Shown here piece by piece: positions 1,904 through 35,900 of a stretch of 36,551 bases of DNA. Each line of letters starts with the position of its first letter. Positions within the stretch are counted from its first letter, which is position 1. The notes under the pieces were generated by a model. That model was not told the origin of the DNA and did not search any database. It saw nothing but the letters and a program-made list of their open reading frames with translations. The position numbers and the translations under genes are program-made. The stretch is from IMG/VR virus record IMGVR_UViG_3300025138_000130, positions 1 to 36,551 of that record; one strand, written 5' to 3'. This DNA is from a virus.

Positions 1904-2397
1904 TTAACCTAACGTGGTTAGATATAACATACTTTTTGGTTCTAGCAACATTAAATGCATACTAGATGATGAACTACGTTCATCTAATACTCACTTTCGT
2001 TCGTATTATTTTTTTATTATACTTAATAGTTTCATGTTTCGCTAGACGTAGTCATACTTCACCCGTTTCCGGATGAAGAAATTCACGTTTCGCTGAGTGT
2101 GAATCATAATAGTTAAACAAGATTTCTTTGCAGAACAGGAGCGGTTTACCGGTACTCCTTACTTGAGCTTCATTAAACGGGACCTGTAAATTACACCGTA
2201 ACTATCCAATGTATACAAGTCTAAGGTTGAATTCTTTTTCTATCAGAGCCCTAATCATTTAGCCTAAAGCATGGCCTTTACTTTGTCCAATTTCGGCAAT
2301 GTCGGGGTGCCGTCAACCTTCAGTCGTGTTTATATATGGGACTATATTGTGCCTATGCTTTTTTCTAAATGTGCCGGATTTGCCAGTTCGCCTGGAC
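1904..2397 (-). ncRNA. Candidate large structured RNA, class unassigned
   Basis: These nearly 500 bases between the GIY-YIG gene and the 66-aa gene have no convincing reading frame. GC is about 47-48% in the two 60-base blocks I counted (2041-2100 and 2281-2340), above the flanking genes. Read on the minus strand it folds into many helices. 2057-2078 is a 9-bp stem with a GAAA loop. 1986-2007 is a 5-bp stem, tandem G-A mismatches, 2 bp and a GAAA loop. 1968-1984 is a 7-bp hairpin. 2137-2159 has AGGAG/CTCCT around an inner CGG/CCG. 2294-2312 has CGGCA/TGCCG. 2223-2230 pairs with 2313-2320 over 8 bp, 2161-2165 with 2216-2220, and 1905-1909 with 1916-1920. Two GNRA loops and nested long-range helices suggest a compact tertiary fold. 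Candidates are a GOLLD/ROOL-type giant RNA, a group I intron remnant or a new class. Strand is inferred from the GAAA loops and the neighbouring genes; both ends are uncertain. Confidence 0.5.
2031..2094 (-). repeat. Near-identical 13-mers within the structured RNA
   Basis: On the minus strand AGCGAAACGTGAA (2082-2094) and AGCGAAACATGAA (2031-2043) differ at one base and are 51 bases apart. They flank the GAAA-capped 9-bp hairpin at 2057-2078. Such repeats could be equivalent structural modules, for example two similar loops or receptors. Confidence 0.5.
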
Positions 2398-2832
2398 TTA
2401 TAAGGGTTCTGAGTTTAGTATGCCTTTTCCGTGTACACGAACTCTAATATGTCCATTGTACCATTCATTGGATTCTAGTACTTTATACTTAAATTGTTCT
2501 CTTGCTTCTATGTAAGAAAGTTCTGATTTACTTTTACAGTAATATATTATTTCCCTACTAAAATTGTCTGTGCCTATTTCTTCTACATCTTTTGTTAACG
2601 CATCACTGGAACCATAATATAATTGCCAATCACTGTCAACTTTGCTTCTAATTTTCTTTTTTACTTTTTTGCCATTCTTCTGTGTATGCATCTTGTATTT
2701 GACTTTTGCAAACTTTGCCAACTTTTTGCCTATATACTTCTTGTCATTGGTCAAATTTGTAATAATGTAAACAAATCCAGCACAGTCTTCAGGCAGTTCG
2801 TTGACTATTTCATTGTGATAAGTCCATGTCAT
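2398..2832 (-). CDS. GIY-YIG family endonuclease (homing-type)
   Basis: A 144-aa protein with an N-terminal GIY-YIG domain: VYI at about residues 21-23 and YIG at 33-35 (GFVYIITN...KKYIGKKL). It continues with the conserved SDWQLYYGSS, the NFSREIIYYCKSKSEL segment and a catalytic-type Glu in SYIEAREQF. This layout is common in free-standing nucleases of T4-like and marine phages, often treated as Seg-like homing endonucleases that cut one DNA strand or both at a target site. No separate DNA-binding domain is obvious; the basic Lys-rich stretch at 40-65 may serve. It lies between a probable terminator and the structured RNA, so it could be a mobile unit. No strong Shine-Dalgarno is seen. Confidence 0.8.
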   Translation of the reverse strand: MTWTYHNEIVNELPEDCAGFVYIITNLTNDKKYIGKKLAKFAKVKYKMHTQKNGKKVKKKIRSKVDSDWQLYYGSSDALTKDVEEIGTDNFSREIIYYCKSKSELSYIEAREQFKYKVLESNEWYNGHIRVRVHGKGILNSEPL

Positions 2833-2914: not shown

Positions 2915-4420
2915 TTAACTATTATACCATTTCTTTAAAAAAAATTTTAACATATGTCTTGTACATTTTAATCTATCTATGAACGCATGAGATTCTTCCA
3001 TACCACCTTTATGTGGATTAATATGATTTAACCATTTTTTATCAATCATAACCTTTTGCGATTCTGCATCAAGCATATTCCGGATACGTGCATCATGGTC
3101 TGCTAACGGCATCATTTGCCTAAGTCTTATATCAACATAAGGACTTACAATTAATTGATCGTATAAAGGCAATTCATCACGCATATATACTTTTTGTCTA
3201 TAATAATGATATGAAAGCATACCGTCTAAAAGTGTTTTACTTTTATAATAATCAAACAGTCTTTCGCTATAGATATATGGCACACATACATAATAAGGCT
3301 CAAGCATTTTTTTCGCTTCATCTAGTGTGCTTGCTCCTAGTTCGTGGATAGCCGCCACAAGTCCACTATTTCCATCATGCCAAAATATTTCATCTCCAAA
3401 AGATCCTTTTAGATATACTGCATTTGGAAACTTGTCTTTCCATCTTACTACTTCAGGCATTAAACTAGGATTCATAGTAGGCATATCACTATGTAATTCA
3501 TTTACTTCATAGTAAATTGAATCATATGTTTTTTTATCCATTATTGAAAGTTCGCCTTTAGGAAAATTTTCATATAATTTAATTAATCTGTTTGGCGGTT
3601 CATCTACAAACCAATCGCCAGTGTAACCAACAACTTTTAAATCATTTATTCTATCGCCAAGCATACTTGCTATATGAATTCCATCTATTCCGTTACAAAT
3701 ACTTGGTATCAATCTTTTATTATATTTTTTATATATTTTATCGATATTTTTACGTAAAATAATATCAGATAAACCCGTAATCTCATCAAAAGTTAATTTT
3801 TTTGTTACATCATAAGCAAGGTCAACATAGTCTCTACGAGCATCATAATACAATGTATGTGAAGTTTTGCAGGTTGCTAAATCTATTGTAAAAAATGTTC
3901 CTGGTCCTACCATTTTGACATTGTTGATTGGTGTAATCCCTGAATACCATGTATCACTGGGATATCCATTATGACACATCCAATTAGGAATATTTTCATA
4001 AGATATAAGTTTTCTATCTACGTATACTCCGTTTATAGCAGTCGTTACCCAGTCTTGATTTATAGTAAAAAACTTATTGGAGAAACTAATAAGTTTATTT
4101 GAAATAATTACTTTATCATTTTCAGCATAATAATATACTGCAAACGTTTCAATAAAGTCTGTAATTACTGTAACTTTTTGTTTATACTTGTCATAGCGTA
4201 TAGCATAAAACAGACCATTAGGCACAAGCCCATCTAAGTTTACAAATTGATCAATATCGTTTTCCCACATAATGCCGCATAGTAAAACAATTACATTTTT
4301 TGTTTCATGTACTTCTACATCTTCTTCATAGCCTAACGAAAATCCATTATATAAATCTATATAATTAGGATATTTCCTCGTAGACAATGATAGATCATTT
4401 GTTAAACAGAAATTTATCAT
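2915..4420 (-). CDS. Asparagine-synthetase-like protein with altered active-site motifs
   Basis: The 501-aa protein follows the AsnB plan. An N-terminal Ntn-amidotransferase-like domain (about 1-180; NGLFYAIRYD, then a DFIETFAVYYY stretch like the DxxGxxPLYY region) precedes a PP-loop ATPase-like domain (about 210-480). The catalytic Cys normally at position 2 is absent (MINFC), so glutamine hydrolysis is unlikely. The SGGxDS ATP loop is replaced by CNGIDG (242-247), while the downstream acidic motif is kept as KGSFGDEIFWH (338-348). AsnB relatives activate a carboxylate with ATP to form an amide; lasso-peptide and beta-lactam cyclases belong here too. This member may use another nitrogen donor or do something different. 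The ATG overlaps the TGA of an in-frame extension of the upstream gene, which suggests translational coupling. It is the last gene of the accessory set and is followed by a probable terminator. Confidence 0.7.
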   Translation of the reverse strand: MINFCLTNDLSLSTRKYPNYIDLYNGFSLGYEEDVEVHETKNVIVLLCGIMWENDIDQFVNLDGLVPNGLFYAIRYDKYKQKVTVITDFIETFAVYYYAENDKVIISNKLISFSNKFFTINQDWVTTAINGVYVDRKLISYENIPNWMCHNGYPSDTWYSGITPINNVKMVGPGTFFTIDLATCKTSHTLYYDARRDYVDLAYDVTKKLTFDEITGLSDIILRKNIDKIYKKYNKRLIPSICNGIDGIHIASMLGDRINDLKVVGYTGDWFVDEPPNRLIKLYENFPKGELSIMDKKTYDSIYYEVNELHSDMPTMNPSLMPEVVRWKDKFPNAVYLKGSFGDEIFWHDGNSGLVAAIHELGASTLDEAKKMLEPYYVCVPYIYSERLFDYYKSKTLLDGMLSYHYYRQKVYMRDELPLYDQLIVSPYVDIRLRQMMPLADHDARIRNMLDAESQKVMIDKKWLNHINPHKGGMEESHAFIDRLKCTRHMLKFFLKKWYNS

Positions 4421-6258: not shown

Positions 6259-7149
6259 CTATTTCAGTTGTATCTCTTGTTTCCATTGAGATCTTTTATT
6301 TACAGTCTTACCACATGTTCTTTTACAAACAAAAAATGCATTACTGTCTAATCTATTTTGGTATTCGTACATAAGTTGTTCAGGAGTAAACTGTAAAATA
6401 TCGTTGTTACGCTCTTTTTTTGCATGATAGACTTCAGCAATATGACAACAAGGAAATTCTTGCCCGTTGTAGTCAACAAACGTAGATTGCTCATGATTAC
6501 GTTCGCATTGTATATTTTTTATTATAGTATAGTCAATAACTTTTATTTCATTTACTGGTTTAATATGTTGGAAACTGTATTCGTCCCATCTATCTGTTTC
6601 TTTACTTCGGAACCAAGTAAATCCCATGTTCCTTGCAAGTCTTTTGCACTGGTCAACTTGGTGTTTGTTGTGGGCAAAAACTAACATATCCCAATGAGCA
6701 CTAGCACCTTCATTTATATATGCTTGTGCATTTTCTATTACTTTTTTAAATTGTACTCCAACTCTGTATATATGATTTGTATCTTGTAATCCGTCTATAC
6801 TAAACACTACATAATCATACTGTCCTGTTAATAAATTTGCACATTCTTTCCACCATTTTGTATTTCTAATACTTCCGTTAGTGTTTATGCCTACTACTAT
6901 TTTTGGTTGTATGTTTTTAATCCATGATATTTTTTCTAACAAATTAACATCAGCACACGGATCGCCTACATTACCACAAAAAAATATTTTCTCTAATGTC
7001 TTAATGTTCTTTGTAACTTGCATTTGGAAATGTTCTAAACTTAAATCTCCTAATGAAACTATACATCCTTCTCCATTCACATTTCTTGCACACATAGGAC
7101 ATGCGGCATTGCATTTACTAGTAGGTTCAAAATGTATTATTTTTTTCAT
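6259..7149 (-). CDS. Radical SAM enzyme with SPASM-like C-terminus
   Basis: The 296-aa protein carries the CxxxCxxC motif that holds the 4Fe-4S cluster and SAM (C13, C17, C20 in SKCNAACPMC). This is followed by a GGxP-like region (FFCGNVGDPCAD), INTNGS and FSIDGL, which are typical of the SPASM-type radical SAM fold. The C-terminal part has further cysteines (IQCERN, FPCCHI, FVCKRTCGK) placed like an auxiliary cluster domain. Enzymes of this type modify peptides, proteins or sugars by radical chemistry. It is clearly homologous to the first half of its upstream neighbour (shared DTNHIYR.GV.F and NAQ.(Y/F)I segments, read side by side), so the pair arose by duplication. Its ATG overlaps the stop of that neighbour (ATGA). 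Substrate not deducible. Confidence 0.85.
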   Translation of the reverse strand: MKKIIHFEPTSKCNAACPMCARNVNGEGCIVSLGDLSLEHFQMQVTKNIKTLEKIFFCGNVGDPCADVNLLEKISWIKNIQPKIVVGINTNGSIRNTKWWKECANLLTGQYDYVVFSIDGLQDTNHIYRVGVQFKKVIENAQAYINEGASAHWDMLVFAHNKHQVDQCKRLARNMGFTWFRSKETDRWDEYSFQHIKPVNEIKVIDYTIIKNIQCERNHEQSTFVDYNGQEFPCCHIAEVYHAKKERNNDILQFTPEQLMYEYQNRLDSNAFFVCKRTCGKTVNKRSQWKQEIQLK

Positions 7150-8870
7150 AATTCTTTATATTCTAAATTGACACAAAGAACTACTTCTTCTACTACAGTA
7201 TTTTTTTGTGTTTGTATGCACCATTCTATAAAATTACTTATATCTTTAGTATCTATGCCGTTTCCAGTCCAAGATTCTCTACTTCTACTCAGAGGAGTAT
7301 CTAACCTGTCAGGCGTAATTAAGGTTGTTTTAAATTTTACTAGTCCTTTTTTATAAGCCTGTGTACATTGTTTACTAGAATGAGACAATGCTGCTTTTGC
7401 TACTCTGTAAGTTTCAAAGTCTGGTTCGGGAGCAACAATTGACTTTTCTCCTATACTTCCTATATTAAAAATCCATCCAGTCTTGCCTAGTTCTTTCCAT
7501 CGTTTGTAAATTGCTTGTAGTAAGTTAGTTTGTGCGTAGTTTGCCCATTCTGTGTCAGGAGGCCCATCAAATGCATTATTAATAAACACATCATAATGTA
7601 TAGATTCATCTACAATTTTATCAATGTCTTTTGTAATGTCTAATCCACTGGCTCTGCTAGATCCGTCTGCATTAAAATACTCTGTTAGACTTTTTCCTAG
7701 TCCTCTGTTATTTCCTGTAATGTAATATCTATATGTTTGTTTCATTGTTTTATTTTGATCCCATACTTTAGTAAGTTTTTGTCCACACGTAAAAGCACAT
7801 TCAAATAATCTGCCATTGTCGAGTGTTTTATCCCAACTGGAAACAAGATCATTCCAAAAATTGTTTAAGAATACGTTTTCCAGTGTAGTAGTGTTAATGT
7901 TCAAACTATCTTTACCGTACTTGGTAATAAATTGTTCGACTTGGTTCTTGCCATTAACAAAATGCAAATCGTTTGCACCCGGTGCAACTTGTTCGCCTTT
8001 AAACCTTGCATCATATAAATTATGTTCAAAGAAGTTACAAGGCAATACTAACCCTTCAGCAGTTATAGTTACTTTATTACCAACACAAGCATCACACTTA
8101 ATTGGAGTTGTGTCAAAATAGTCTTTAATAACAGGGTATTCTTTTTTTAGATTCCCTAAATTTTTCATACTATTGTTGCGATATTCTTCTAGTGTTGTAA
8201 CTTCTAACTTATAAGGTTCTTGTTTCTGAGGGGTAACTTGCCAACTGTCTTGTTCTTCAAGTGTTTCATGATTTAAGAACCTGCCAGTACCTCTAAACAA
8301 TATTTTTTCAAAGCCTACAGTAGCACTTAATTTTCTAGCACTTTCTATCTGGTGTTCATTGTGCTTAAATACTATAAAGTTCCATTGTGCCTTTCCACCT
8401 GCTTGTATAAATGATTGTGCATTGTTAATAGCATTATCAAACTTTACACCTCGTCTGTATATATGGTTAGTATCATTTAGTCCATCGATTCCAAAATCGA
8501 TCTTGCCGTATCCGTTTATAATTTGTGCTAGTTCTTTCCACCAATCAGAATTATGAACTCCACCGTTAGTATGCATATACAACCAAAGTGTAGGATTTTT
8601 TTTACGAAAGTCTTTAAGAATATCTAAAAAGTTTGGATGTACGATTGGATCGCCATAACTTCCACAGAAAAAAACTTGTCGTAACCTATTGCACAGTTCC
8701 TTTGTAAACGCCTTATCTATTGTTTCTCTGCTCAAATGACATAAAGGCAAATGAGGGTTAATTTTTCCACCTGCTATATTTCTAGGACACTGAGGACAAG
8801 CCGCATTACAGTAAGTAGTAATCTCTAATTGATACTCGTCAACAGTAACATAATTAAAGTTTTTACTCAT
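7146..8870 (-). CDS. Radical SAM - short-chain dehydrogenase fusion protein
   Basis: The 574-aa protein has two enzymes in one chain. Residues about 10-370 are radical SAM/SPASM-like: CNAACPQC (C21, C25, C28), FFCGSYGDP, HTNGGV and FGIDGL, then late cysteines (CDACVG, LPCNFF, CAFTCGQ). Residues about 382-574 are a short-chain dehydrogenase/reductase: TGNNRGLG (385-392) as the dinucleotide loop, FINNA (NNAG-like), NIGS and YRVAK (Y488, K492) as the catalytic Tyr/Lys. At about 190 residues the SDR part is shorter than the usual 250 but keeps its key residues. Such a fusion implies sequential steps on one substrate: radical chemistry, then NAD(P)H-dependent reduction or oxidation. The frame is continuous with no sign of an assembly join. 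It starts 4 bases after the gp46 stop and overlaps the next gene by 4 bases. Confidence 0.85.
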   Translation of the reverse strand: MSKNFNYVTVDEYQLEITTYCNAACPQCPRNIAGGKINPHLPLCHLSRETIDKAFTKELCNRLRQVFFCGSYGDPIVHPNFLDILKDFRKKNPTLWLYMHTNGGVHNSDWWKELAQIINGYGKIDFGIDGLNDTNHIYRRGVKFDNAINNAQSFIQAGGKAQWNFIVFKHNEHQIESARKLSATVGFEKILFRGTGRFLNHETLEEQDSWQVTPQKQEPYKLEVTTLEEYRNNSMKNLGNLKKEYPVIKDYFDTTPIKCDACVGNKVTITAEGLVLPCNFFEHNLYDARFKGEQVAPGANDLHFVNGKNQVEQFITKYGKDSLNINTTTLENVFLNNFWNDLVSSWDKTLDNGRLFECAFTCGQKLTKVWDQNKTMKQTYRYYITGNNRGLGKSLTEYFNADGSSRASGLDITKDIDKIVDESIHYDVFINNAFDGPPDTEWANYAQTNLLQAIYKRWKELGKTGWIFNIGSIGEKSIVAPEPDFETYRVAKAALSHSSKQCTQAYKKGLVKFKTTLITPDRLDTPLSRSRESWTGNGIDTKDISNFIEWCIQTQKNTVVEEVVLCVNLEYKEL

Positions 8871-23300: not shown

Positions 23301-23928
23301 TGATGCTATAGTCTTTAATAGTGTTAGTTATAGACCTTTATTTGGAGATAAGGCGGATAGTGAATTGCAAGCAACATTTAAAATTGTAAAGAATTTAAGT
23401 ACTCTAGTAAGTGATAACGAAATAAAAGCAAGAGTAGTTGAAGAAGTTAATAATTATTTTAGTATCGATAATTGGGACTTTGGAGACACATTTTATTTTA
23501 GTGAACTAGGTGCGTATTTACACAATGCACTAGCACCTGATGTATTAAGTGTTGTAGTAGTACCTAAGGTATCTACAAGTAGTTTTGGAAGTTTATATCA
23601 AATAAGTAGTTCAAGAGATGAAATTTTTATTAGTTCAGCCACAGTTAATGATGTTGAGGTTATTGATGTAATAACCGCAGCACAGTTAGGCGCTTCTGGC
23701 GCAGTTGTTAATAGCACAGCTGATATTACAACATTAGAAAGTGTAAGTAGCACAGGTACTGCTAGTGCAGTAACAACTGTATCAAATGCTACTACAGTTA
23801 GTTCGAGTAGTGCAAGTAGTGCAAGTAGTGCAAGTAGTTCGAGTAGTGCAAGTAGTTCGAGTAGTGCAAGTAGTTCAAGTAGTTCAAGTAGTTCGAGTAG
23901 TTCAAGTTCTGGAGGATATGGTTACTAA
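20308..23928 (+). CDS. 6: Baseplate wedge protein gp6 with serine-rich tail
   Basis: The 1206-aa protein shows the gp6 N-terminus clearly: DYLRNFYPEDFNDYIESSEY, DLIAYIAQSVNFRTDLNARE and the following LRLAKMLNYFPKRSQ. It also has the later gp6 motif LVFGDGVFSNIPTGNFRIYF and QRAQQQYYTQNRMVTAEDYQ. In T4, gp6 dimers form the inner ring of the wedges. At 1206 residues it is nearly twice T4 gp6 (660 aa); marine T4-like phages often have longer versions with inserted domains. The last 40 residues are almost only Ser and Ala, ending GGYGY. The stop shares bases with the next ATG (TAATG). Confidence 0.9.
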   Translation: MSHTTRSSNLFAAQDWTKVYQSFKEIDFQSYDFQTIRKSMVDYLRNFYPEDFNDYIESSEYIALIDLIAYIAQSVNFRTDLNARENFLETAERRDSILRLAKMLNYFPKRSQISRGLLKVDSVSTTEILADSNGNSLDNLEVFWGDETNPDFLEQFTTIMNAAMVKTQRYGNPALSSTVGGIATQEYNLSIVPNTVPVFDFRNTVSTQEFPFELVNGTYSGTDFLYEVAPKPNSTINAIYRNDSKGFNSVNTGFFFYFKQGRLQTLDFNVNEALPNRVVEVDVTGIDNNDVWLYQLDSNGAEETLWTKVPAISGNNVIFNSLNQNNKTLYSVQSRSADRISLVFGDGVFSNIPTGNFRIYFRVGNGFTYKISPQDMSNITITVPYVSHSSQVETLTVNMSLKQTIANSSARENLNDVKQRAQQQYYTQNRMVTAEDYQIFPFTSFNNIIKSKAVNRTSSGISRYLDVRDTTGKYSSTNIVAEDGIFYKDSTRPTFNFTFVTDSDISNTLSKNVETVMQANPMYHFFLDNYLRVDETDLGITWSQTSIGTGVCTGFMTNIDSSPQKVSFFTSNNLKYFKEGALAKFTAPTGFVFDVNNNLVATGTSNLNTKTYIWASCSNLIEDGTNQGAGNLDSGLGPVTLSEVIPNNAILDSVVYPWNTSFTTTVRQQIIANVGDYKTFGLRYDTETQAWTIINGTNLDQSTTFSTRYSGDITSTNLDASWLFLFTNDGETYTVTYRSLEYIFESYLETRFYFDKDLKIFDPRTAKTIKDKIVMLKVNSIPDGSTSFGQNYIMNIDNTVVEDDGFVLSERIKVTFPDQDSDGVIDDPDVFDVVVAPLTNSSTKVVFYKTYLDNSGYTRFEPVPNTSVQTSFATLTLIEGVKTTYADGQIFYASTTGLFYVLSTNSSSVKTLTQTTDYITKIGRSELLFQYTHNAPNNRRIDPSPSNIIDLYLLTTTYNTDYRNWVTDVTGSISKPAKPGTNELRDAYGTLETSKSVSDAIVFNSVSYRPLFGDKADSELQATFKIVKNLSTLVSDNEIKARVVEEVNNYFSIDNWDFGDTFYFSELGAYLHNALAPDVLSVVVVPKVSTSSFGSLYQISSSRDEIFISSATVNDVEVIDVITAAQLGASGAVVNSTADITTLESVSSTGTASAVTTVSNATTVSSSSASSASSASSSSSASSSSSASSSSSSSSSSSSSSGGYGY
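23797..23910 (+). repeat. AGT/TCN serine codon repeat in the 3' end of gp6
   Basis: The bases are built from short units such as agtagtgcaagtagttcg repeated with small changes, encoding alternating runs of Ser with scattered Ala. This is a region prone to slippage, so length may vary between related phages. Confidence 0.75.
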
Positions 23929-26900
23929 TGGCAATAAGAAAAACAACCACTTTACTACCTGAGGTTTTTAGAACCAGTAAGAACGAAAAGTTCTTAAATG
24001 CTACACTGGATCAACTTGTTAGTGAAGAAGATAAAATTAAAGTAAGTGGGTTTATCGGCAGAAAAAATGCTGAAAATTTTAGAAAAGGCGATGGATACAT
24101 CACAGAATCTAGTAGTTTTAGACAAAACTATCAGTTAGAGCCTGGTGTAGTGTATGAAGATGCAGGCGGAACCATACAGAGTGTTGGTAGTATAGGTGAC
24201 ACACTAAACACACTGAGATATAATAATGCAACAGTAACAAACCAAGACACACTGTTTAGACAAGACTATTATAATTGGTCAAGTTTTGTAGACTATGATA
24301 AACTTATCAATTACGGTGAATATTTTTGGTTGCCAGCAGGACCTGACACAGTGCAAGTATTTGGCGGAACAGTTGATAATACACAAACTTACTCTGTGTT
24401 GCGAGAAGAAACCGGTGCAACTAATTACAGATTCGACTCTAGTACTGGTACACCTAATCCTATACTTTATTTTGCTAGAGGTGGCGAATACACCTTTACA
24501 GTAGATCAAACTGGAAATCCTTTTTGGATTCAAAGCGAACTTGGAACTACCGGGATCAGTGCAAGTCAAATCAATGTTAGCACAAGAGAAGTTCCAGGTA
24601 TTACGAACAACGGTGAAGATGTAGGAACAATTACATGGAGAGTTCCTAGCAGTGATAGCCAAAGCCGTTTCACTAATATGGCAACAGAGTACAATGTTGA
24701 TTTAGCGACAGATTTACCTTACAAAGATTTACAGAACCAGTTACTAACTACTTTCTTAGCGACAACCATAACTGGTATAGACGGCTTAACTGAAATAAAT
24801 GGTAAGACACTAGTATTTGCAAGCACTAGTTTAGATGAAAGAGACTGGAAGCCAAGTAGTATTAGTGCAGGTAATTCGTACAGAACTGTAGACAATGCAG
24901 TATTAACTGCTGACAACGAATATAGTAATACAACATTAACCACTACTGAACGATACGGTGTTTTTAGTGTTAATGTAAAGTCAGTTGGTGGACAGGATAC
25001 TATCACACTTGATAGACTAAATGATGTAACAAAGTACAACAAGTTAAGAATTAAACAAGGAACTACTTATGGAAGTAGATATTTGTATAAAAATGCAGAA
25101 GAACAACTCGAATTAGTGCCTGCTATTGTTGCTAGTCAAGAAGAATTTTATTATCAAGATGGTGCAGATGCAGATAGATTTGGAAAAATTATATTAGTTG
25201 AACAAGCAACAACTGCTAGTATAAATGTTACAGAGCAAATAATTGATCAAGTTAGTTATACTAGTCCTAATGGTGTTGTGTTTACTAATGGACTAAAGAT
25301 CGAGTTCGATACAAGTGCAACTCCTGATAGTTATCAAAACAACAGTTATTATGTAGAAGGTGTTGGTACTGGTATTAAATTAGTATTAGAAGATGATCTT
25401 ATTACACCTGAGCCTTATGCAGTAACAGCAACAGAGAGATTTGATAGTAAGAACTTTGATGTAGGTGGGTTTGAACAAACGTTAAACAGTCCCACAACAC
25501 ACGATTATATTCTTATTAACAGAGCAAGTGCAGATAACAATGCTTGGAGTCGAGGGAATAGATGGTTCCATAGAAGTGTAATTACTGCTACTGCCGCATA
25601 CAACAATTTTACAACAGTAATAGATGATAACTCAAGAGCAAAACGACCTATTATTGAGTTTGAACAAGGACTAAAGTTATATAACATGGGAACTACCAGT
25701 AAGAGTCCTGTAAGTATTGTTGATACTGTAGAAACTGATGCATTTAGTAATGTAAACGGTAAACAAGGTTATTATGCTGACGGTATTAACTTAACTCCAG
25801 GACTAACAGTTTGTTTTACTGCTGATCCAGATATTAATAAAAACATTTATCGTGTTGACTTCATCGATGTTAATGTTAAAGGCAATTCCTCTAATAGACG
25901 TGCAGATTCAACATTTACTATTGATATTTCTTCGGTTACTGCGGATGATTCACCTTTTGAATCTGTTAATGACATTATAAATTTAGTTCTTATAGACACT
26001 GTTGTTGATGGTGACTCATTGTTAAGTAAGTTAGGGTCAGCAAATCAAGGCAATATGTATTATTACACACTATCTACTAATATCTGGGCTATAGGTCAGG
26101 AAAAGACTGGGGTTAATCAAGAACCGTTGTTCGATATCTACGATCCAGCACATATTAGTTTTAGTGACGCAACAAAATACCCTAGTACCGATTTTTTAGG
26201 AAACAAACTTTTTAGTTACAAGAAAAGTACAACTGCTTCTAGTGCAGATAGCATATTAGGATTTGGATTAACTTACAGAAATATACAAAATGTTGGTGAT
26301 ATTGTCTTTGACAATAACTTTGTAAATGATACGTTTACATATACTAAAGAGAATACAGGGCAAGTAAGTGTTATATTAAGAAGTGGACATGTACATTCAT
26401 TTAGTGTAGATACTACTAATACAATTACTAGAAAAACACTAAACGGTTGGACTAAAATACTTAATCCAAGCAGACAATGGCAGCAAGTACAATACACTGT
26501 AGATGCAGAGTTATATACTTTTGAAATTGGAAGTCAGCCTGTTACAACAGGCGGTGAAGTTACGTTACAGGTTTATGTGAATGGAATATTTCAAACTGGT
26601 AGCAAGTACACACAGACAACTGTTAATGACAAATATTATGTAAACTTTACTGACAAGTTAGTAAAGGATGATGTTGTATTAATTAGAGTTTATAGTACAA
26701 CTATAAATCCTTTAGGATTTTATGAGATTGCTAGTAATTTAGAAAACAATAGTAACAACGACGACTTTGCTAATCTTACATTAGGACAATTAAGAAATCA
26801 TTTCGTTGATATATCCAGAGCAATTCCAACATTTACAGGAAGTAGTTTAGGCAACAACAATATTAGAGATTTGCAGTATAAGAAGTATCCTGGTAAGATA

Positions 26901-29900
26901 TTACAACATAGTGCAGGAAGTGTACTTCCGAATTATATGTTAACACAATCAGATAATAGTTATATCGAAAGTATTAGGTTTAGTATGGAAGAATATACTA
27001 GATTTAAAAGTAGATTATTAGATAACATTGATAATTTAGATATTGATCTAACAGATCCTAGTGGTAGTTTAGATACCATCTTAATTTTCATGGCTGGAAC
27101 AAAAACTAATGATTTCCCATTTTATTATTCTGATATGCTACCGTGGGGCAGTCAAAAAACTACAACTACACTAACATTAGACCAGGTAACTAATAGAGTA
27201 TTTGAATTCACGACTCAATTTGATCTAACAAATTTAAGTAATCGAGGAGTTTTGGTTTACTTAACAGAGTCTAGTGGAGCAAAGACACAACTTATAGAAG
27301 AGTCTGATTATACATTTGATACTGTTGAACCTGCTATTATATTAGATGCAAATGTTAGCATTTCAGTTGGTGATATATTAAGTATTGTTGAATACAGTAA
27401 TACTGATGGTATATTTGTTCCACCAACACCGACTAAGTTAGGTCTTTATCCAAAGTTCCGACCAGCAGTTACGTTAGATGATACTTATATATCAGGCACT
27501 AGTACTGGAACAGGCCCTTTTAAGATTTATGGAACTGCTGATAGTAGAGTTACACAACGTGGACAATCCAAAACCGGATGGTTTTATCCACTGTATACAA
27601 CACTAGCAGCAGCACAATCAGCAGATGGTTCTTCTAATGCCCACATACATAGATTTGTAGGTAGTGATAGAGCATGGTATATGGCATCCTCTGAAACTCA
27701 ATATCATGCTAGTAATGATACTGAAGAATATAATGAATACTTAGATTATACTCCTGTTCTTTTAGGGCATGACGGAAGTCGCTGGGTTTGTTATAAGGAC
27801 AAAAGAGATTTAATTGTACTAGAGTATGAAAAAAGAATTTATAATAATATTAAGACACAATACGAAGCAACACGATTTGATTTATCTGAAGTAACTCCTG
27901 GGTATTTTAGAACAACTCGTGCAGACTTAGACGAAACAACATTATTGTACAGTCAATATTTTAGTACTTGGGCATACAAGAACGCATTAGACTTTTCTAG
28001 TATTACTTCACATAGCCAAGAAAATACGTTCACATGGAATTATAGTGGTTCTGTTTTAAAAGGGACAACAACACTTTTACCAGGATCTTGGAGAGCAATT
28101 TATAAATGGTTATATGATACAGAAACACCTCATTTAACACCCTGGGAAATGTTAGGAGTATTTCAAAAACCAAGTTGGTGGGAAACTAGATACGGAGCAG
28201 CACCTTATACTCGTGGAAATAATGTTCTATGGAATGACTTAGCCTCTGGCAGACTTTATACTAGTGCAGATAGAGATGCAACATTCACAATAGTAACGAG
28301 TCGTATTAGAAGCGGGTTGTTAAATCTAATTCCAGTTAACGATCAAGGTAAACTTTTATCTCCTGCACAGTTTGCAGTCGAAGGTGCGTTCAGTACAAAT
28401 ACAAATAACAATTGGAGAATCGGAGACGTCGGCCCAGTTGAAACTGCATGGACAAGAAGTAGTGAATATCCGTTTAGTCAACAGATTGTTTCTGCACTTA
28501 AGAGACCTGCAAAATATTTAACTTTATTATGGGATACTAACTTACTAGAAAATAATACAGATTATGATCAAATAGTACAAAAAACAAAAAGTTATAGACC
28601 TAAGACAGCAGATTTTAAAATAAACGGATTGCCGACATCAGGCGGTGTAAATAGAATAGAAGGATATAATCAGTTTATCGCAGATTATTACAAGTATAAA
28701 AGTCTTGATTTATCTGGGTTGCAAACACAAGTACAGAACTTGTCGTTAAGGTTAATTTATCCTGTTGGAGGTTTTACAGATTTAAATCTTGCTAAGTTTG
28801 TTATTGAAAGTACTAGTCCAGGCGCAACGCAAAGCAACATCTTCATACCTGATGAAAACGTGAGTGTTTATTTAAACAAGAGCACACCTTTAGAAAGAGT
28901 ATTTTACAGTGGTATCAGTATTGTTAAAAGAGCCGCTGGTTATGAGATTAGAGGATACGATACTAAAAATCCCTTCTTTAAAATTATACCTAGTGCAAAA
29001 AGTCAGAACACAAAACTTATAAGTGTCGGCGATGTTAGTGCTATAGTTTACGGTGACAGTGCAACATATATTGCTAATATACCTTACGGAACTATTATTC
29101 CTACTATACAACAAACTGCTGATTTTTTAATTAGTTATAGTAGATACTTAAAGGCAAAAGGAATATTATTCGAAGATGTTGACAATGTAGGAGTAACTGT
29201 AGATTTTGAAAATACTGTTAAAGAATTTATTTTCTGGACTCAACAAGGATGGGGAAATGATAGTGTATTTGGAGCAAGTCCTAACTATCGTAAACTAAAA
29301 GTAACAAGACCTTTCACTACGTTAGACGATTTAAGTAAAAGCGGAACATTAAAGAATTCATCTGGAAGAGCAATTAGAAGCACTAATTATAATGTAGAAA
29401 GAATTGATAATACTACAGTTATTGAAGTAAATGATAGCAGTGATTACCTTTACTCTGCTCAAATAGATCCAATACAATACGAGCATTATATTATACTGGA
29501 CAATACTACTATTTTTAACGACATCATATATCAACCAGAACTTGGCAACAGACAAAGTCGTATAAAGTTTGTTGGATATAAGAGCGGAACTTGGAATGGC
29601 ACGTTACATGCTCCAGGTTTTATTATTAATGAAAACAAGTTTAACGTTTGGTTACAGAACACAGATTATAAAAAAGCAGACATTGTAAGTCACAACAAAA
29701 AACTTTATGTTGCAAGAGATAATCATAACGGTAAGTCAACATTTGATTTTAACGATTGGCGACCAGTAGAGAATATGAAAACTGGGTTATTGCCTAACTT
29801 ATCTCAGAAGTCTAAGAGATTTACTGATTTTTATGATTTTAACACAACTAACTTAGAGAGTGGCACAGATATTGCGGCTAAAGGTCAGATTGGGTTTAGA

Positions 29901-32900
29901 AAAAGAGACTACTTGGATCAATTAGGATTAGATGATACTAGTCAGGTTAAGTTTTATCAAGGTATGATTAAAACTAAAGGAACTGCAAATGCAATAGATA
30001 AGTTAATCGGTGCTAATTTATCTAACTTAGACCAAGAAATTAGTTTTTATGAAGATTGGGGATTTAGAGTTGGAGAGTACGGTAGCATTGATAGTAATCA
30101 AGTTATCGAAATGGTCATTGATGAGTCTAAAGTACAACAAAGTAAAACAGTAGTGGAATTGATAGATAATAATGATAGTGCTAATACTGATTATTACTCA
30201 TTTACAAAATCTGACCTATATAAATTACCTAATAACTTTACTAAGAATATATTTCTTGAAAGAAGCACAAGTAATAAGAAAACTGACATACTAGGAGCAG
30301 GTTATCCTAGGTTAGATGAAGTAACAACAACGTTGTTTGGATTAGATAATATCTCTACATTAAACAATTTACCCAACATAGGAAGAGGTTCGACTATATG
30401 GACTGCTGAAGAAGATTTTGACTGGAATGTTTACAGAGTTAGTGAATTAGCAGTATCTATTACTAACATAGCTGTTGGAGCAGACACTAGTGCAATTATT
30501 ACTACTAGTGCAAATCATGGGTTAGTTAAGAACGATTATATCTTAATTAAAGCGTCAACTGTTGTTGGTGGATTTCATAAAGTTACTAATGTAATTACAA
30601 ATGTATCTTTTACTGTAGACTTAGGTGACATTGAAGTTGATAACATTGTAGATTTAAGATTGCCAGTGTTTAAGTTAGTAAGTTCTAGATTTAATTCTCA
30701 GAGCGATATCGCAGATAATGTTCCGTTATATGGATGGGACTTAAACGAGTCTGTATGGGTTAACTATGATGAAAAAGGTAAATGGGCGACATATAAAAAA
30801 CAACAACCATGGACTTATAAGAATATAACCTTCAATATTGACAGTGTTGCAAGTGACTTAAACGGTACATCACTTTCAATTAGTAATGACGCACTTAATA
30901 TTGCTAGTGGTGCTCCAGAACATAGTACAGGTGCAGTTTATCCTTATTCAAGAGATGAGAACGGAATATATAATCCAGGCGCTGCTTTAGCACCAGCAAC
31001 AATACAATCTGATGTTGATACTTTTGGTTGGAAAGTTGCTGCAGGTAACTCATGGTTAGCAGTAGGTGCACCTGATAGTGATAGTGCAAAAGGAGAAGTT
31101 TTCATATACTTGAGATCAGCCTCCACAGGAATTTATGAATTTAAACAAATCTTAAGACTTCCGAGTCCAGCAGGAGCAGATAAGTTTGGTTATAGTATAG
31201 CAATGAGCAAAGACGATAGATATATGTATATTGGTGCTCCTGGTGCTAATAAAGTTTTTTCTTATACCCTTAATAATATTATTACTACTGATAATGTATC
31301 CAAGACAATCACCGGCGATGGCTCAACAACAACATTTGCTTTAGGATTCACTCCTACTAGTTTAACTTCTTTGCAAGTTGTTGATTCTACTGGAAAGATA
31401 TATGTTCCAACTAAGGATTATGGGTTTAGTACAACTAATATTGTATTTGTTAATGCACCTGCTGACAGTTTAAATGTTGTTATTAGACAAGAAAGTCATT
31501 ACATTTTAACAGACACTATCACAGGAACTGGTGTGCAAACAGGCGATCAATTTGGTTATGACATAGATTGTGATACTGCTGGAGATACATTAATTGTTGG
31601 AAGTCCTTTTGCTGAAGTAGACGAAATTACAGATGCTGGTGAGGCATTTTTATTCCATCATGTTGTAGAAAAGTTTATAGGTGATGGAACGACATACGAA
31701 TTCACTCCTACAACTACTTTACCAGCAAGTTTTTTTATTGAAGTTGATAATGTACTGCAATCAGTTACGGACGGTGGATTTAGTTCATTTACTAGTGACA
31801 GTAGTGAAAATAACTTTACATTTAGTGGAAATACTATCTCGTTCAGGTATGTTCCAAGTGTAGGACAAATAATTAGAATTTACACAGGTAGTATCGTTGA
31901 AATACAGAAATTAAATCAAGAACAGATTAGTACTGAAACACAAACTGATAATGAGCAGTTTGGAATCAGTGTTGCACTAGATGCATATGGTGCTATAGCC
32001 GCAGTAGGATGTCCAGGAGAAGACGAACTTAATCCTAATACAGGATCTGTCTTTATGTTTATTGATGAAGGTTTAAGATTTGGTAGTGTTACTAGTCAAA
32101 ATCAAAATACATCATCGACTGAAGGGTACATGGCATCCAACGGTGTTATCAAAGCAGATAGTTCAACTGTTACAGCTGATAGTTTCTTAACATTATTTGC
32201 GGCACAAGGCGATATTATAACAATAGATGATATAAAAGTTACTGTAGTATTAAATGATAATTCAGATGCAACAAACTTTGTTGCAGATATAAACAACGCA
32301 AATATTCAAACAGTAACAGCGACTGCTTCAGGTACACTTAATATGACTATAACAGGCAGTGCTGGCGTTGTTAATAAGAAACTTAAAGTTAGACCAATGA
32401 CTGGCGATACATTTAAAGATTATGCAAGATTTGCGCCATTTAAGTTTACGCAAAAAGTTAGTCATCCGTTAAAAGCAGAGAATGAAAACTTTGGTAAAGT
32501 TGTAGAGTTTGACAAGTTTCTACCTGCAGATCAAATTGTAGAACAAAGAATGGTTGTTACAAGTGATAGAGCAAGTACACAGTTTCAGACGGCTTTTGAT
32601 TTAGACATTGACACAACTAGTAATACATATAACGAGCACTTAACAACTTTTGATGCTGATAGTACTAGATTTATGGATAAAGTAACAAATAGTGGCGCGG
32701 CATATGTTTATGAGTTACTAGATAGCAGTGTATACAGTGCAAATATACAAAGTATTAGTAATCCTCCTAAGTATGCATACGGACAGCAGATGCAGAACAC
32801 AAGTATTAATGCTAATGATCAATTTGGCGGGAGTGCAGTTCTTCATGGTACTAGATTGTTTGTTGGTAGTCCAACAGATGATATTTGGAAAACTAATGCT

Positions 32901-35900
32901 GGAAGTTTTTATCTTTTTGAAAATATTGATGATCTTAGTACTTGGAAGAAAAATAGTACAGAAGACAACAAAGTTGATGTAGATGTTATTAATCGTATTG
33001 CAACATATAGTAAAGTGAATAACACAATAATTGACTTTATTGATACAGTAGACATTTATAAAAATAAATTACCAGGGCAAGCACAACAAGAGTTAAATTA
33101 TATTATACCTATAGACCCTGCAACTTATAATGTTAGTACAACTCCTAATAGTGTTACGTTTTCACAAACAAATGGATGGAACGACGAACATATTGCAGAG
33201 GTTTGGTGGGATTTATCTACCTGTAGAGTATTAGAGTACGAACAAGGCGAAATAAATTATCGTGTACAATACTGGAATCAGTTTTTTCCTGGAAGTTCAG
33301 TTGATATCTACGAGTGGTATGAGAGCGATGTATTACCTAGTCTACACGTATCAAGTGGATTAAAGGGAGTGCCGAAGTTTGCAGACGATAGTAACTATTC
33401 TACGTCACTTCAGTATAACAGTGTTACAAATTCTACTGAAACAAGATATTATTATTGGGTAACAGGACTTACTGACTTCATTGACAATGAAGTAAGGACA
33501 CTTAGCACAGAAAGTGTTAGACAACTTATCGAAACTCCAGATAGTACAGGTACAAAGTATCTTAGTATTGTTGCACCTAATACGTTTGTAATGAATAATA
33601 TGACTAGTAGTTTTGCTGATAGAAATGTTGTACTTAGTATTAACTATGATGTTGTTAGAAATGATGGTATACTACACAGTGAGTTTGAGATAATAAGTGA
33701 AGGTGATTCTAATCAAATTCTTCCTGCTAAAATTAAAAGTAAAATGATCGATAGTTTATCAGGTGCAGATTTATCTGGTAAGATTGTTCCAGATCCTACA
33801 TTAAGTGTTGGGGAGAGATATGGAATTTCTGTAAGACCTAGGCAAACAATTTTTGAAAATAGACAACAAGCATTAAAAACTTTTGTTGATTATTGTAATG
33901 TAGTTTTTGCAACAGTACCAATTACTAGACAGTTTAGTTTAAATAATTTATTCTTAAATGATCCATTGCCAACAAAAGCAAGTGGTGCGTGGGATAGCAA
34001 AGTCGCAGATGTTATTACTAGAGATTATTTGAATACTGCAATCTTAGAAATAGGTTATAAGATATTAGTTGAATCAGACAGTACAATCGGCGGTGACTGG
34101 GCAACATACGAGTTAAGATCAACGACTGCAGGTGTTAGATTTTGGTTCTTAAGTACAGTTCAGGCTTACAATACTAGTAGATATTGGCAGTACACAACTT
34201 GGTATGCAACAGGTTTTAGTTCTACAACATTACCTACAGCTACAGTAGCAACTGAACCTGATTTACAAAGACTTACTGGTGCAGTAACTGGAGACATTGT
34301 AAAAGTTAGTACCAACGATGACGGTAATTTCAGTATGTACCAGTACACAAGTACCGACACGTGGAATGAGATAATCATTGAAAGAGGAACAGTTGTTTTA
34401 CTAGGCAATCTATACGATTTTGCTAACGCATCTACTGGTAGTTACATTGGATTTGATACTGGTGTATTTGATTTTGAAAAATATGACAGAGTACCGCATC
34501 AAGAAGTTAGAAATATTGCAAATGCAGTATTCAATGATATCTTTGTTAATACATTAGCAAAAAAAGGCAATGAATTATTCTTTAGAATGGTTGAATACAG
34601 TTTACAAGAGTTAAATAGTTCGGTTCCAGATTGGGTAATTAAGACTAGTTTTTTAAAAATACTACATAAAGTTAGAGATTTATCACAGTATCCGACTTAT
34701 CAAGTGGATAATACTACATTCATTGAAGAGTTTATTAATGAAGTAAAACCTTACCATACTAATATTAGAGAGTATACTGCAAAGTATGACGGCGATGATA
34801 CTATGCAAGGTGATATCACAGACTTTGACTTGCACTCATTCTATGATCCTACAAATGGCTATTTTAGAAAGTATAGTGGTGATTTTCCTGGAGATACAAC
34901 TTCAAGAACAACAGGAACAACGGTTGATAAGTCTTGGGCAGATAATTATACCTATTACTTAGGTAGTGTAGAAATATATGCTGCAGGAACAGGGTATACA
35001 GACAATCCTGTTGTTACTGTTAGTGCACCAGATATATCCACAGGTACCCAAGCAACAGTAACAGCAACCAGTGATGCTAATTCTGTTATAAGAGTAACAA
35101 TAACAAACAAAGGAAGTGGTTATACTAGCACTCCGACGCTTACAATTAGTGGTAGTGGAACAGGATTAGTATTACTTCCTAGAATAAAAAATGATACTAT
35201 TCGAGATTTTGATACAACAATAAAGTTTGATAGAATTACATATTCAAGTGCAGTTAAAGATTGGGCAGCAAGTACAACTTACAGTCCTAGTGGACTTGCT
35301 AGTAATACAAGTCAGACTGCTGATAGTGGAATTTCGTTAACCGCGCCACAGATAACTTTAGTTTCATACCTTAATACAGTAACTAATACGCAGGATGTGT
35401 ATGAAGTTATACTTGGTTTTACTAGTGGAACAACGTTTAGTACTGAAGACGCAAGCGGAAACATAGTACTAAGTTTATATGCAGACGAAAGTATAGGAAG
35501 TGCGGCAGACAGAATTGCGGCTTATTATAGTCCTACTTCTGGCATGCTTGGAGATGATTTAAGTATTTTACAAAAAGGTACTAATTATACTGCAAACAAA
35601 CTATCTGGAGTAGGTTTTAATAGAGAACCTGGTTACGATAGTGCAAGTTTTGATAATGTTGCATTTGATGACTTTGAAGTTGACAACGATGGGCTAACAG
35701 TCTTAAGTGGATCTAGTGCGTACGACACAATACTACAGAGTAAATTTTTAGATACTAGTTTAGGAACTAGACCAGAAGATATTAATATAGACGGTGGTGG
35801 ATTTATTGACATATACAGTAGTCATGCACCTGAAGAATTTGTTCCTGGACAGATATTTGATAACTTAGATATGGAAGTTTATACAGATCCAAATAACGAC

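Follow-up and report, generated by a model that had tools for sequence, protein, structure and literature searches.

A structured RNA beside a phage SegE-type endonuclease gene belongs to a previously uncatalogued family carrying two identical tags

The window analysed here, a whole stretch of viral DNA of 36,551 nucleotides, encodes on its minus strand, from about position 2360 to 1964 and directly after a segE gene, an RNA that is a member of a previously uncatalogued family. The RNAs of this family carry in their 3' module two short tags that flank a hairpin at a spacing of about 55 nt; the tags are identical within an RNA and differ between RNAs. An earlier note, made from the sequence alone, had proposed an unassigned large structured phage RNA, perhaps of a new class, and this proposal was largely right with regard to covariation, the absence of coding and the lack of an Rfam match. 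We give a probability of about one in two to the reading that this is a trans-acting regulatory RNA that presents one sequence twice to a partner, with a nuclease gene parked beside it.

The RNA lies in a true intergenic gap (1865-2397), which bears out the roughly 490 gene-free bases claimed previously; the gap is bordered by two minus-strand genes, one of 66 aa and the other the SegE-type GIY-YIG gene of 144 aa. The source phage is T4-like, and its baseplate genes have distant relatives, at about 23-34% identity, in PA5oct, Rak2-like and other jumbo phages. Folding of the minus strand yielded a minimum free energy (MFE) of -134.3 against -110.1 +/- 6.4 for shuffled sequences (z = -3.8; 0/100 shuffles), while the plus strand gave a z of -0.6. 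As had been noticed, the GC content of the region (0.38) is above that of its flanks (0.28-0.33). A protein is excluded because stop codons are conserved in all three frames across homologues, and the longest open reading frame inside the RNA region of the window has 25 aa. Homologue alignments and covariance-model matches (2136-2284 and 2126-2271, and 2093-2201 from a model without type A-C sequences) place the approximate conserved extent at 1964-2360. Thus, of the extent given originally (1904-2397), the folded RNA is confirmed but 1904-1963 probably lies outside it, since conservation stops at the hairpin 1964-1985.

Behind the endonuclease of L046, a GIY-YIG relative, a recognisable copy of the RNA was found, and a search pattern taken from its best-conserved hairpin matched at least 119 viral contigs of up to 347 kb, here called type A; the window is a type-A outlier, together with the loci L168-170. 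With a first covariance model (R1), most of 47 SegE loci were seen to carry the RNA as well; in type B it is upstream of segE on the opposite strand, and in type C, added by the later combined model R2, it is downstream of segE. By covariance model 42 of the 47 loci are RNA-positive, a figure that measures linkage from the SegE side only, since the set was found via SegE. Seen from the RNA side, segE is upstream in 88 of the 109 type-A loci that have an upstream gene (81 with a literal YIGKK motif). The long contigs tested have one RNA copy and one segE each. When RNAs of types A and B were compared by blastn with 50,697 phage records, no match appeared, and cultured relatives were reached by covariance models only; the search patterns had 0 matches in 84,980 bacterial and archaeal genomes. 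By eye, the loci L014, L047 and L048 resemble a further type.

Covariation was evaluated in 81 type-A sequences by a G-test with APC, for which 20 null alignments, generated along a FastTree tree with every column keeping its own substitutions, served as the reference; this was a home-made stand-in for R-scape. In this tree-aware test about 10 canonical base pairs covaried, with no or almost no null pair scoring as high, and RNAalifold (32 sequences) predicted 81 pairs, 30 of them with two-sided changes. Covariation among homologues, the check named beforehand, is therefore present, and the structural case rests on it because the MFE z-scores of several homologues were unremarkable or no better than those of the opposite strand.

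Read from its 5' end, the RNA begins with a domain (2285-2342) that encloses a hairpin (2294-2314) and is closed by a covarying helix between GUCC (2339-2342) and GGAC (2285-2288), which in homologues is mostly GAC..GUC with some GC/CG swaps. Two core hairpins were assigned next to it, GGCC-AUGCUUUA-GGCU (2261-2276; fold and RNAalifold) and one ending in CAACC (2225-2256; covariation and RNAalifold). AAGGUUG (2314-2320) and CAACCUU (2223-2229) are complementary in the window, but homologues support pairing of CAACC within a local helix (in the window UUAGG..CCUUA, which has one mismatch; columns 119/145 by covariation and 128-131/152-155 by RNAalifold) instead of the long-range pair 2223-2230/2313-2320 suggested in the earlier note. 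As this pair falls, the GUCC/GGAC helix anticipated there stands as the closure of the 5' domain but makes no pseudoknot. Another pairing put forward, ACUUG with CAAGU (in 2211-2222 and 2157-2168), is possible in homologues, although RNAalifold favours pairing of its second strand with the sequence preceding tag 1. The most conserved element is the hairpin AGGAG-UACCGGUAAACCG-CUCCU (2137-2159), which has a counterpart in types A-C and in cultured phages. The 3' module comprises tag 1 (2087-2097), which is CUC followed by AGCGAAAC (2087-2094), and tag 2 (2036-2046), which is UCU followed by the identical AGCGAAAC (2036-2043), both assigned by tag count and fold, with a GAAA-loop hairpin between them (2058-2077; fold and RNAalifold). 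Downstream are a 3' hairpin with a GAAA loop and a strongly covarying stem (1985-2009; columns 365-369/385-389, E 0 to 0.35) and a last covarying hairpin (1964-1985; columns 393 and 396 with 405 and 402; RNAalifold), which is probably the 3' end or a terminator. Both GAAA-capped hairpins reported at first are thus found on the minus strand.

Among the strongest covariations were two non-canonical column pairs, 279/334 (AA 46, GG 35) and 283/338 (AA 42, GG 37, CC 2), identical in 81/81 sequences despite 7 to 13 changes on the tree. The tag segments read ACUC+tag and AUCU+tag, and their prefixes are fixed and mutually different, which argues against simple gene conversion. At least six identical tag bases were present in 118/118 RNAs (95 type A, 23 type B); the best-matching pair was chosen in each RNA, so some agreement is built into this count, a bias of which the tree-based test is free. 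When the type-A tags were dealt at random, 22 of 94 matched (maximum 37 in 2000 shuffles). At least 10 distinct tags occur, for example AGAUGAU, GGAUAAU, AGAUCAAG, AGCACAUA, ACCACA, GCCACA and GGUACA. The family is defined by a conserved UAC-N-G..AACC hairpin and by a pair of identical tags with a further hairpin between them, and the window has both (2137-2159 and the AGCGAAAC tags).

No tag complement was seen inside the RNA, either by eye or in the covariation table. Kissing between tag 1 and tag 2, tried as a candidate, fails in the window (AGCG vs GUCU), and a position in hairpin loops had weak support for tag 1 and none for tag 2. Around phage start codons, complementarity of the tag segments to mRNA, compared across orthologues in five long contigs, did not exceed shuffled controls, and no conserved target emerged. 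One Rak2-like tag 2 (CCCCGUCAAU) may resemble the complement of a conserved 16S rRNA stretch, a likeness that leaves the other tags unexplained.

In cultured phages, R2 matched large unannotated gaps of PA5oct (E 2.6e-5), Atu_ph07 (E 0.006) and XbC2 (E 0.18), and found no match in 11 others; these negatives are weak, since pEa_SNUABM_19, one of the 11, is Rak2-like. Gaps resembling that of XbC2 occur in 31 records of Rak2-like jumbo phages, pEa_SNUABM_19 among them, at several places in each. A further model, R3, was built from seven Rak2-like copies with nothing from types A-C, and detected four copies in E. coli phage 121Q and five each in Salmonella phage Munch, Pectobacterium phage CBB, Cronobacter phage GAP32 and Xanthomonas phage XbC2; Agrobacterium phage Atu_ph07 has one copy. 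The copies in cultured phages sit in unannotated gaps, often four or five per genome. In a 164-kb search, R3 matched the window at 2093-2201 on the minus strand (E 0.0012) and the core of the type-A locus L050 (E 0.019), E-values that are rough because of a short calibration, and both matches lay on the right element, the hairpin UACCG..AACC. A blind scan of Atu_ph07 yielded ACUC-AUGAAU and AUCU-AUGAAU, and the Rak2-like copies contain CGUCAG twice or CGUCAA twice (23 scorable copies; one Munch copy was unscorable). Paralogues within one Rak2-like genome mostly, not always, share a tag, and this incomplete sharing does not prove a single genome-specific partner. The least certain member is PA5oct, which is backed by R2 alone and not by R3, and in which no twin tags were found. 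In the PA5oct group (11 records), places similar to the non-coding gap number about three per genome, and one of these falls in the terminal repeat. The host of Sharanji, a relative of 121Q, is listed as K-12 MG1655.

The neighbouring gene (2398-2832, minus strand) encodes a segE-type free-standing GIY-YIG endonuclease of 144 aa that matches this domain alone, over the full model (PF19835 positions 1-123/123, E 4e-31). The tight linkage and the two arrangements, with the RNA downstream on the same strand in type A or upstream and divergent in type B, would suit a guide for RNA-guided homing, in which the nuclease cuts where the RNA pairs and the two identical tags could serve two nuclease monomers. 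We regard such a guide as distinctly unlikely, because no annotated segE adjoins the Rak2-like copies seen or the copy of Atu_ph07, L168-170 have none, and about 20 type-A loci have the RNA without an adjacent segE; conversely, SegE relatives occur in Melnitz and in cyanophages, where the covariance models find no RNA. Adjacency of RNA and nuclease is thus not obligate, although these genomes may carry a segE at a distance from the RNA, and the tags are very similar across many phages, which is not target-like. The SegE gene is, from its genomic contexts, probably a homing endonuclease gene parked beside a conserved RNA target: segE can precede or follow the RNA, some copies of the RNA lack it, and the RNA also adjoins homing-type genes of other kinds, namely of a second GIY-YIG family and of HNH type (recognised by eye). 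This matches the clustering of homing endonuclease genes near essential loci, as HEG islands (PMC10448857).

A comparable neighbourhood is that of T4 SegB, a free-standing homing endonuclease beside tRNA genes according to a paper cited in PMC10448857; both adjoin non-coding RNA genes, but there the RNA is tRNA and here a new family, for which ARAGORN was negative (tRNA and tmRNA). HEARO/OMEGA RNAs and the RAGATH-18 reRNAs, the latter described in PMC11061315 as structured RNAs encoded beside a nuclease, likewise adjoin a small nuclease gene; they differ in that the nuclease is RuvC/HNH there and GIY-YIG here, that the present RNA also occurs without a nuclease, and that it has no Rfam match. 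At L093, upstream of the RNA, most of segE has given way to another GIY-YIG gene while its final residues, HGSHIINKI, are still there, as though a second homing gene had been written over the first at the RNA junction. In phage records and in PHROGs, members of the SegE GIY-YIG family (phrog_447; 2398-2832 in the window) frequently carry the label 'NAD synthetase', which seems to be an annotation error passed on from record to record.

The comparison with catalogued RNAs was negative: Rfam 15, including GOLLD, ROOL and group I as the earlier note had advised, matched neither the window nor any of 18 homologous loci, and narrow searches of homologue stretches at E<=10 returned chance matches to unrelated families only. 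Genome papers and reviews, at keyword level, mention no such RNA, and a prior description in the subscription literature is possible. The size, the GAAA loops, the phage location, the GIY-YIG neighbour and the direct repeats flanking about 55 nt would be in keeping with a self-splicing intron or other ribozyme, such as a group I intron, possibly permuted, whose splice sites would be the identical tags. This is very improbable, however, since neither group I (RF00028) nor group II models matched the window and two homologues at E<=10, the RNA is flanked by complete genes of many kinds and interrupts none of them, and up to five paralogues per genome occupy different gaps. A circularly permuted group I intron with an S-like AUAUAGUCCC near 2339-2349 was also considered and dropped, its partners being absent.

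GOLLD and ROOL resemble the new RNA as large, ornate, phage-associated non-coding RNAs whose function is not known; the new RNA differs in having no covariance-model match to them, in being smaller and twin-tagged, and in its location beside SegE or in multiple copies in jumbo phages. According to PMC12286853, GOLLD, ROOL and OLE form homo-oligomeric complexes. An RNA-only assembly of this kind, in which the conserved segments would be intra- and intermolecular contacts, would fit the comparable size, the phage home and the high conservation of unpaired nucleotides. We consider it unlikely, as no match to these three families was found and the tags are identical and not complementary, which makes simple tag-tag kissing impossible.

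An extended -10 promoter-like motif, TGGTATAAT (2921-2929, minus strand), lies upstream of segE and, judged by motif likeness, would give a segE-RNA transcript. Type A begins soon after the upstream stop codon and ends in terminator-like hairpins, an arrangement that may point to a structure acting in cis, as a 3' UTR or terminator, for segE and other genes upstream. Against this possibility, which we find quite improbable, the RNA is far larger and more conserved than such a role needs, type B is divergent from segE, and L168 and the Rak2-like copies come with their own promoter motifs. Most stand-alone Rak2-like copies have the same TGnTATAA motif as segE conserved at their 5' end, the motif is enriched upstream of genes in homologous phages, and TTGACT-N16-TATAAT precedes the RNA at L168-170; these motifs suggest host-type, probably early, transcription of the stand-alone copies. 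The leaders of the type B and L168-170 RNAs have AGGCA motifs repeated (2-4 copies) ahead of the structured part. In the long type-A contigs G006-G008, two promoter classes were noticed upstream of genes, TGCTATAAT (host-like) and the T4-late-like NTAAATA.

Under the preferred reading, that of a trans-acting regulator, the class would consist of structured non-coding RNAs of 400-600 nt from T4-like jumbo phages (the window copy has about 400 nt). The 5' domain and the conserved core would act as a stable scaffold, and the 3' module has the same 6-8 nt sequence twice around a hairpin, before two covarying hairpins end the RNA. Transcribed from a host-type promoter and acting in trans, the RNA may bind a single partner at two equal sites; this partner would be either another RNA, bound by base pairing, or a dimeric protein. 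Two equal sites on a conserved scaffold are what is expected of an RNA that binds one partner twice. SegE would stand outside this machine, as the product of a free-standing homing gene that has taken up residence next to a conserved target. The RNAIII of S. aureus, of about 500 nt, presents one short sequence redundantly for base pairing, and its loops target Shine-Dalgarno sequences. The new RNA may work alike, given its size and redundant short sequence, without being a member: there is no homology, and an mRNA target was not found for the new RNA.

More tentatively, the RNAs may form a new superfamily of jumbo phages in which selection keeps the tags identical while they change between lineages, a co-evolving partner being recognised via two equal sites, and which in some lineages possibly serves as a GIY-YIG guide. 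We know of no catalogued RNA class with such a mode of recognition. The novelty lies in the RNA family and the twin-tag feature; if it is a plain antisense RNA, it is a new class of a known kind. Lytic phages have few known large structured RNAs, a kind of molecule that often proves to have a ribozyme, scaffold or central regulatory role. The hosts include E. coli, Salmonella, Cronobacter, Pectobacterium and Agrobacterium, and, on weaker evidence, those of Pseudomonas jumbo phages. Its presence in cultured phages makes the RNA testable at once, and the twin tags give a sharp, checkable prediction.

Elsewhere in the window, two radical SAM genes stand side by side in a minus-strand cluster (6259-8870), and an open reading frame of at least 4208 aa (23928-36551) runs off the end of the record.
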